A DNA stretch of 24,818 nt from a virus. The number at the start of each line of letters is the position of its first letter. Position 1 is the stretch's first letter. The stretch spans positions 1 through 24,818 of IMG/VR virus record IMGVR_UViG_3300046798_000076; one strand, written 5' to 3'. The translations under genes were made by a program, and so were the position numbers. Shown piece after piece: positions 8,175 to 8,728 of the stretch. The notes under the pieces were generated by a model, which was given only the letters and a program-made list of their open reading frames with translations, was not told the origin of the DNA and searched no databases.

Positions 8175-8515
8175 ACGATGCCGAGTACTACGCGAGCGCC
8201 CTGGAGCGCGTGAAGGTGGCGCGCGAGCTGTGCACTGAGCTGATGCGCACATGCCCGGCAAACGGGCGCAGACCTGACGCGCTACGCGCGAACGTCGGCG
8301 TTCGCGCCGCACTGCGCGCCGCGTGCGAGATCATCGAGCACAACCCACCGAAGGACTGGACCAGCGACTTTCTCCAGGGCCACTGGTCCGGCATGATCGA
8401 GGCGGGAATGCGGATCATCTCCGCCGTCGAGACGGAGATGTACGACCCGCGCGAGCACCCGGAGCGCTACGAGGTCAGGGCGCGCGGGGTTGACAATCAA
8501 TCAGGCGGCGACTAA
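8171..8515 (+). CDS. Helical hypothetical protein, end of nuclease operon
   Basis: A 114-residue, largely helical, charged protein (starting MNDAEYYASALERVKVAREL). It has no recognisable motif apart from scattered Cys/His residues. GTG 8171 overlaps the nuclease stop as GTGA with GAGGA 6 nt upstream. The codons near its 3' end double as the TTGACA promoter element at 8490. Confidence 0.65.
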   Translation: MNDAEYYASALERVKVARELCTELMRTCPANGRRPDALRANVGVRAALRAACEIIEHNPPKDWTSDFLQGHWSGMIEAGMRIISAVETEMYDPREHPERYEVRARGVDNQSGGD

Positions 8516-8518
8516 TCT
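8490..8518 (+). promoter_or_regulatory. Strong promoter TTGACA-17-TAATCT
   Basis: Perfect -35 TTGACA (8490-8495), exactly 17 bp, then -10 TAATCT (8513-8518), overlapping the end of the 8171 gene. Transcription should start near 8525, directly before the long hairpin and tRNA-like element. AATC recurs at 8499 and 8514, 15 bp apart. Confidence 0.75.
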
Positions 8519-8527
8519 AAGACACAG

Positions 8528-8573
8528 ATTCGCCGGTCGGGGATCCACGGGAAGGGCACTCCGACCGGCGAAT
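8528..8573 (+). ncRNA. 13-bp perfect hairpin at the 5' end of a leader RNA
   Basis: Positions 8528-8540 pair perfectly with 8561-8573 around a 20-nt loop. The predicted transcript start lies only a few bases upstream, so this is the first structure of a ~250-nt leader, not a terminator of the gene before it. It is separated by four bases from the tRNA-like element. Confidence 0.6.
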
Positions 8574-8577
8574 GAAT

Positions 8578-8665
8578 TGCCCCGTAGCTCACGGAGAGCA
8601 GCGACAGGATCCGGACGGCGCAAGCCGCCTGATCGATCGGACCGGGTTCGATTCCCGGCGGGGCA
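8578..8665 (+). ncRNA. tRNA-like element lacking a canonical anticodon arm
   Basis: A near-complete cloverleaf. The 7-bp acceptor stem is TGCCCCG (8578-8584) with CGGGGCA (8659-8665). U8-A9 follow at 8585-8586. The D-arm is GCTC/GAGC (8587-8599) with a very short loop, ACGGA. The T-arm is CCGGG-TTCGATT-CCCGG (8642-8658). The 42 nt between D- and T-arms do not form a normal 7-base anticodon loop. They best form an elongated arm (core 8608-8634) ending in CGGC-GCAA-GCCG (8616-8627), a GNRA tetraloop. An alternative reads ATCCGGA (8609-8615, anticodon CCG) as the loop, with a 12-nt hairpin inserted between loop and 3' stem. No CCA is encoded. Could be a decayed tRNA, a tRNA mimic or an RNase P processing site. 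Confidence 0.55.
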
Positions 8666-8679
8666 CGAGGGGCGGGGTT

Positions 8680-8728
8680 CCGGGTTCTACCCCCCACCCA
8701 AAATGTACGAACCCGGGTTGGTACCAAC
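8680..8728. promoter_or_regulatory. Hairpin plus 12-bp palindrome before the SSB-like gene
   Basis: CCGGGTTC (8680-8687) pairs with GAACCCGG (8709-8716). Immediately after comes the perfect palindrome GTTGGTACCAAC (8717-8728). The palindrome could be a protein-binding operator or part of the folded leader. About 48 nt then remain to the start codon at 8777. Confidence 0.45.

Follow-up and report, generated by a model that had tools for sequence, protein, structure and literature searches.

The DNA analysed here, called the window throughout, is a 24,818-nt virus fragment from IMG/VR (IMGVR_UViG_3300046798_000076). A structured leader lies in it between an exonuclease gene and the gene that starts at 8777. 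The helicase and exonuclease of the window are about 30% identical to their actinophage counterparts, and a DUF397 gene (PF04149) at 9670-10002, from a family typical of Streptomyces and relatives, hints at the host. The features of the locus are as follows.

7215-8174, plus strand: exonuclease gene, PHROG 466 (E 1.8e-30), the anchor for finding relatives
8490-8518, plus strand: putative SigA-type promoter, TTGACA (8490-8495), 17-nt spacer, TAATCT (8513-8518)
8528-8573, plus strand: HP1, a perfect 13-bp hairpin (arms 8528-8540 and 8561-8573, 20-nt loop)
8578-8665, plus strand: anticodon-less tRNA-like element (TLE), long form, from the cloverleaf fold, a shuffle test and stem pairing
8578-8584, plus strand: 5' strand of the acceptor stem, TGCCCCG, pairing with 8659-8665 (7/7)
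8585-8586, plus strand: equivalent of U8-A9 (U8585-A8586), from the sequence
8587-8599, plus strand: D-arm, GCTC-ACGGA-GAGC, with GG in the loop (stem 8587-8590/8596-8599, 4/4 pairs)
8600-8641, plus strand: 42-nt segment that takes the place of anticodon arm plus variable loop and folds into a long arm tipped by CGGC-GCAA-GCCG
8642-8658, plus strand: T-arm, CCGGG-TTCGATT-CCCGG (stem 8642-8646/8654-8658, 5/5 pairs)
8659-8667, plus strand: 3' strand of the acceptor stem (8659-8665) followed by CG; ACG at 8665-8667, after C8664, matches the tail of the mini class described below
8680-8719, plus strand: inverted repeat CCGGGTTC/GAACCCGG and the palindrome AACCCGGGTT; a similar arrangement occurs in the relative L002
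8777-9502, plus strand: gene after the leader, its N-terminus common to L002

An earlier note on this DNA, made from the sequence alone, had placed a near-consensus promoter at the head of the leader. Its sequence and spacing hold and its strength does not, since TAATCT matches TATAAT at three of six positions; a consensus promoter scan does not list 8490-8518. An arrangement of the form TTGNNN-16/17-TANNNT can be read at the equivalent position in six relatives. The perfect 13-bp hairpin that the note described is read directly from the sequence. Its loop carries ATCCACGGGA, which is constant in six phages, and its stem varies compensatorily among them; besides the window, the sites lie in L035 (about 3602-3650) and L038 (about 14550-14595) and, on the minus strand, in L040 (about 12000-12040), L043 (about 12160-12200) and L047 (1904). 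HP1 has no Rfam match and looks like a separate protein- or RNA-binding motif. Matches to the loop pattern in two other phages, L016 and L018, appeared to be chance-like and were set aside. Downstream, the reported 12-bp palindrome is indeed a palindrome, with a perfect length of 10 nt (8710-8719) that flanking GTAC extends with a mismatch. Among the relatives, the motif GACAGTCCGGAGAGACGGAC is kept between the exonuclease and the next gene (L002, about 3841-3863; L003, about 6206-6225; L005, about 7605-7630), and a repeated GGGGCGAGAAATCAACTCCCC hairpin follows soon after the putative promoter in L003 (about 5967-5990) and L005 (about 7192-7215), with shorter versions in L004 and L007. The label "SSB-like" that had been given to the gene at 8777 is suggested by its position after the exonuclease alone, as Pfam and PHROG searches give no family match. 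Neither this gene nor the exact tRNA-like element has direct relatives in IMG/VR or the phage collection.

The cloverleaf is both the minimum free energy and the centroid fold of 8578-8667 (-45.1 kcal/mol, z -3.2). We required a 7-bp acceptor, a 5-bp T stem, U8, a purine at position 9 and a 4-bp D stem, and none of 300 dinucleotide shuffles of the window reproduced this arrangement. Sequence and fold thus confirm two proposals of the note: an 88-nt tRNA-like element with intact acceptor stem, U8-A9, D-arm and T-arm, and a 42-nt arm with a GCAA tetraloop at 8600-8641 in place of the anticodon arm. A 7-nt anticodon loop with U33 is absent. The 7-bp acceptor register makes C8666 the discriminator, and the tail fits a 6-bp register only. 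No covariance model calls an ordinary tRNA here, a call that by the terms of the note would have refuted its mimic idea: ARAGORN and Rfam call none in the window, RF00005 gives no match in it, its gathering threshold not being reached, and the stretch searched alone has tRNA-Sec as its top tRNA-clan match, at 14.4 bits (gathering 47). RF01684 (mascRNA) matches weakly at 17 bits, far under its gathering threshold of 42.5, and RF02553 (YrlA) has no match in the window. The Rfam scores rule out an ordinary tRNA, tRNA-Sec, YrlA and mascRNA as the identity of the element, and a terminator is ruled out since none is called in the window.

Seven IMG/VR phages were brought in through an exonuclease search and alignment. 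TLEs lie between the exonuclease and the next conserved gene in six of them (two each in L002, L004 and L011, one each in L003, L005 and L007), and L006 has no element within the sequence searched. A further TLE stands between the helicase and the following gene in L005 and L007; this pair has the D-loop TAACTGGAC in common and differs in all stems and in arm length. L011 has an additional T-arm after the conserved gene. The exonuclease gene of L005 (5598-6572) is split by an insertion, probably an intein. Used as an anchor, the helicase found no IMG/VR relative, and a search of bacterial genomes found no relative of the exonuclease.

The TLEs of these phages differ from the window element, and seven long-form TLEs with clear stems can be compared for pairing. 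Because the MAFFT alignment of long forms was too gappy, stems were counted in a fixed register. Pairs form at 47 of 49 acceptor, 28 of 28 D and 35 of 35 T positions, against means of 30, 19.6 and 25 when the 3' halves are permuted; only 2, 6 and 1 of 5040 permutations, respectively, match the observed counts. Acceptor and T pairing helped to select the long forms, so that the D stem is the cleaner, independent test. The 5' halves are ambiguous or imperfect in L003, the first elements of L002 and L011, and the second of L005. Compensatory changes in related phages, on which the earlier note had staked its reading, are seen in the acceptor, D and T stems. That stems pair despite differing indicates selection for the tRNA body but not for the decoding end. 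RF00005 accepts five of the relatives, at 36.8-47.2 bits. Three of them have a large insert within the anticodon arm or past it (loops of 19 and 21 nt, and more than 30 nt), and the other two have 7-nt loops that lack U33 (G33 in L004, A33 in L002). Overall, the anticodon loops are expanded, shrunk or without U33. As no relative examined has a normal 7-nt U33 loop in the anticodon-arm position, the claim that the element cannot act as an ordinary tRNA stands, and the comparison shows an anticodon that, as judged from these loops, is absent or useless.

These relatives also bear on whether the leader works as a regulatory 5' UTR, with a T-arm that would switch between the TLE and GAACCCGG (8709-8716) and so control translation of the 8777 gene. 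In the centroid fold of the whole leader (8520-8776), the 5' side of the T-arm does pair with GAACCCGG (8709-8718) instead of forming the TLE T-arm. However, this alternative pairing is not clearly conserved in L002-L011, where the T-stems and downstream repeats differ, and we regard such a switch as very improbable.

A much larger set of elements has a reduced form of 40-55 nt, consisting of an acceptor stem, a short linker with GG, a T-arm and a purine-C tail. The first phage blastn matched unannotated intergenic T-arms in the Gordonia phages VanLee and Morgana and the Mycobacterium phages Predator and Myrna. Scanning for an acceptor stem plus T-arm revealed a run of elements, mostly of 41-51 nt, in VanLee and Morgana, where shuffles gave 0-0.1. 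A T-arm match in G003 (5178-5188) was coding-like and was dropped. We also used a search pattern in which parts of the sequence were fixed and the outer T-stem and acceptor pairs 5 and 7 were left free. It matched in 43 IMG/VR contigs, and a tighter pattern found 21 loci among 84,980 bacterial and archaeal species, all in Actinomycetota; cultured Gordonia, Mycobacterium and Streptomyces phages carry mini elements as well. The pattern is not perfectly specific, a few matches falling in ordinary phage tRNA arrays (L083, L085). In L085, a 44-nt mini tRNA-like element lies at 244-287 within a large phage tRNA array.

Pairing at the free positions provides the evidence for an RNA fold. All three outer T-stem pairs form in 53 of the 61 distinct sequence-only matches, compared with a mean of 5.6 and a maximum of 15 in 2000 permutations, and the free stem positions are paired in 175 of 183 cases. 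Acceptor pair 5 forms in 55/61 (permutation mean 27, maximum 41), acceptor pair 7 is not kept (25/61), and the linker GG is present in 60/61, as in the tRNA D-loop. In alignment A2, some rows of which were scanner-selected, 93% of cells are paired versus 30-55% in slid controls, and none of 500 shuffles reaches any measure of covariation. The flanks of 46 elements are likewise regular: G+1 in 41, A-1 in 33, R73 in 42 and C74 in 42. The covarying acceptor and T stems, the kept T-loop and GG and the purine-C after the acceptor show a fold that, on these comparisons, is evidently under selection.

The window and mini forms have in common the acceptor, the T-arm, the D-loop GG, ACG after C8664 and an intergenic, co-oriented placement. 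A covariance model of the mini form, R1, gives 47 matches in 467 kb and recovers elements outside its training set (SWU2, Dagobah, StAB and plasmid pGBRO01); it reaches 27.4 bits in the window (E 0.017) in another 5' register (8627-8667). The grouping proposed here thus rests on common anatomy and placement, not on a significant model match. On that footing, the tRNA-shaped stretch in the window is, as far as sequence comparison can tell, real and part of a widespread intergenic class of actinobacterial phages and mobile elements, and its best explanation would be a long-form TLE of that operon class. The mini form is not covered by any Rfam family. We found no earlier description of it in the literature searched, a search that left preprints and most subscription papers outside, and within these limits the class is apparently undescribed.

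The placement of the elements is regular. In VanLee, 17 of 18 intergenic gaps of 55-400 nt between leftward genes hold a TLE (16 by the T-loop anchor alone, one more with TTCAAGT), and in Morgana so do 9 of 10 gaps of that size (8 by the T-loop anchor, one more by the scanner). The counts are 6 of 10 in Konstantine, with two more by eye, at least 6 of 9 in Predator, and one in five in the Dagobah region. In VanLee and Morgana, the stop codon is followed by 6-9 nt, the TLE, about 48 nt (47-52) and the next start, so that stop codon, TLE, ribosome-binding region and start follow in order; TLEs are co-oriented with transcription. At Streptomyces and Nonomuraea loci, the TLE lies at stop +10-14 and start -33/34. 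Of 119 Streptomycetales genomes, 8 carry copies and the other 111 have none at E 1e-5; together with the Dagobah count, this means that the class is not universal. The bacterial copies sit in 80-90-nt gaps adjoining RapZ C-terminal-domain, NUDIX, WhiB and DUF2637 genes, and the RapZ C-terminal-domain, WhiB and DUF2637 neighbours hint at TLE use in mobile elements too. In two Streptomyces loci (L116, 5218-5598; L122, 6095-6475), the gene right after the mini-TLE encodes a RapZ C-terminal domain on its own (PF22740), which is the part of the RNase adapter that binds RNA. The window TLE is an outlier, 400 nt past the exonuclease stop and behind the putative promoter and HP1.

Positions 6-9 nt past stop codons and GC-rich stacks of 11-12 bp could instead belong to mRNA-end stabilisers or termination hairpins that are merely tRNA-like, the stem blocking 3' exonucleases. 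In Konstantine and Predator (L130 and L061 gaps), a second hairpin (e.g. GAATC...GATTC) follows many TLEs before the ribosome-binding site, as might suit such a role. Nevertheless, the window has no U-tract and no terminator call, and the TTCRA T-loop, the linker GG and the purine-C after the stem would all be superfluous in a plain stabiliser; we consider this reading improbable. Decayed tRNA genes, or attP fragments of phages that integrate at tRNA genes, are less credible still. Many actinophages integrate at tRNA 3' ends, and the T-arm plus acceptor is the part usually duplicated. However, the TLEs retain both acceptor strands and occur in many copies per genome across gene junctions, and their stems differ in every copy with nearly all differences compensated, on which ground we rejected a tRNA or attP remnant.

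The main rival is that TLEs act in trans, as decoys or stable small RNAs that occupy a host tRNA-binding factor such as RNase P, a modification or CCA-adding enzyme, or a toxin or defence nuclease whose recognition site is the elbow or the acceptor end. Retention of the elbow and acceptor end with loss of the anticodon would suit this role, as would several copies per genome and the presence, in some of these phages, of Y RNAs that contain tRNA-like domains. The YrlA/bacterial Y RNA family (RF02553) resembles the long form in having a tRNA-like module whose anticodon arm is replaced by a different stem, and VanLee has an Rfam YrlA match before a Ro-like gene. In this phage (L059 20530-20758; VanLee 65.3-65.6 kb), an annotated tRNA-Arg(tct) scores below tRNA gathering. 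Two YrlA-like matches (47 and 33 bits) stand immediately ahead of the Ro-like gene, and the annotated tRNA, which overlaps one of them, is possibly a Y RNA and not a tRNA. In Mycobacterium phage Myrna (L055 640-840), unannotated intergenic GTCGGTTATCC stems and a T-arm just before a Ro gene are probable Y RNA(s). No Ro gene was found among the window proteins scanned, which are part of the ORFs of a 24.8-kb fragment, and TLEs, unlike YrlA and Y RNA, stand at many gene junctions. Action in trans needs no co-oriented copy in each gap at a fixed distance from the stop codon, and elements that have no anticodon cannot be decoys for nucleases that target it. We therefore judge a decoy or small RNA to be unlikely, though less so than the other rivals.

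One co-oriented TLE per gap, directly after the stop codon, indicates processing in cis. For this reason the most fitting of the roles that the earlier note had listed, at least as an inferred function, is that of an mRNA processing site for RNase P/Z, and the decoy or sRNA role, also on its list, fails to explain placement. That note's observation is partly confirmed and its interpretation partly supported; class membership and the many copies in other actinophages had been missed. We think it probable, from sequence and placement, that TLEs are cis-acting, tRNA-mimicking punctuation cut by host RNase P, probably together with a 3' tRNA nuclease. Hairpins of acceptor and T-arm are established minimal RNase P substrates, and RNase P cuts phage non-tRNA RNAs (M3 RNA and C4 RNA) as well as polycistronic mRNAs (PMC11143913). 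The enzyme requires a T-loop on a stack of acceptor and T stem. The traits kept in TLEs (the stack, the T-loop, a dockable GG, G+1, A-1 unable to pair with R73, and C74) match RNase P recognition, and the window element has the substrate trait of an 11-12-bp acceptor/T-stem stack with a T-loop. From these traits we infer cleavage, the part of a 3' nuclease and an effect on expression. Host RNase P would read the stack and elbow and cut at the 5' end of the TLE, which in the window means just before U8578 or G8579. At the other end, the cut past the discriminator base may fall to a 3' tRNA nuclease, for example RNase Z. Because the 3' tail is RCG and not CCA, RNase P pairing with RCCA would be partial. 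A polycistronic message would thereby be split at gene boundaries into pieces with their own ends and half-lives; in the window, the cut would release the HP1 leader and give the 8777-gene mRNA a new 5' end.

Several known systems offer comparisons with punctuation of this kind. In mitochondrial transcripts, tRNA units between genes are cut by RNase P and a 3' nuclease, releasing mRNAs. The likeness lies in tRNA-shaped units between genes; the mitochondrial units are functional tRNAs, whereas TLEs lack a usable anticodon, often consist of acceptor and T-arm only, and are predicted to be cut. The mascRNA/MEN beta RNAs are short tRNA-like RNAs that lack an anticodon arm and are produced by RNase P and Z, and in this they resemble the window element, but they lie at the 3' ends of animal lncRNAs, unlike TLEs. 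The minimal RNase P model substrates have the same reduced architecture of acceptor stem and T-stem-loop (PMC11143913) but are laboratory constructs, whereas TLEs occur naturally, in many copies, between genes. Phage M3 RNA and the C4 antisense RNA of P1/P7 are non-tRNA RNase P substrates named as individual phage RNAs (PMC11143913), whereas TLEs form a family repeated at gene boundaries.

TLEs most likely mark the points at which the host enzyme that trims tRNAs divides the phage message gene by gene. A broader proposal, which we advance tentatively and hold with somewhat less than even confidence, is that minimal tRNA mimics incapable of decoding serve actinobacterial phages and mobile elements as a dedicated code for gene boundaries. 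At these marks RNase P, with a 3' tRNA nuclease, would cut operon transcripts into single-gene messages, and the system would be the counterpart in bacteria of mitochondrial tRNA punctuation, made from degenerate tRNAs. If this is true, bacterial viruses arrived at tRNA punctuation by way of tRNAs that had lost their decoding part. The elements would form a natural set of minimal RNase P substrates comprising dozens of independent sequences, and so provide natural substrates for a question about RNase P so far studied mainly with synthetic hairpins. They would also supply a rule for annotating actinophage genomes, where the elements seen here carry no annotation, and a way into the question of how phages control individual genes within long operons.
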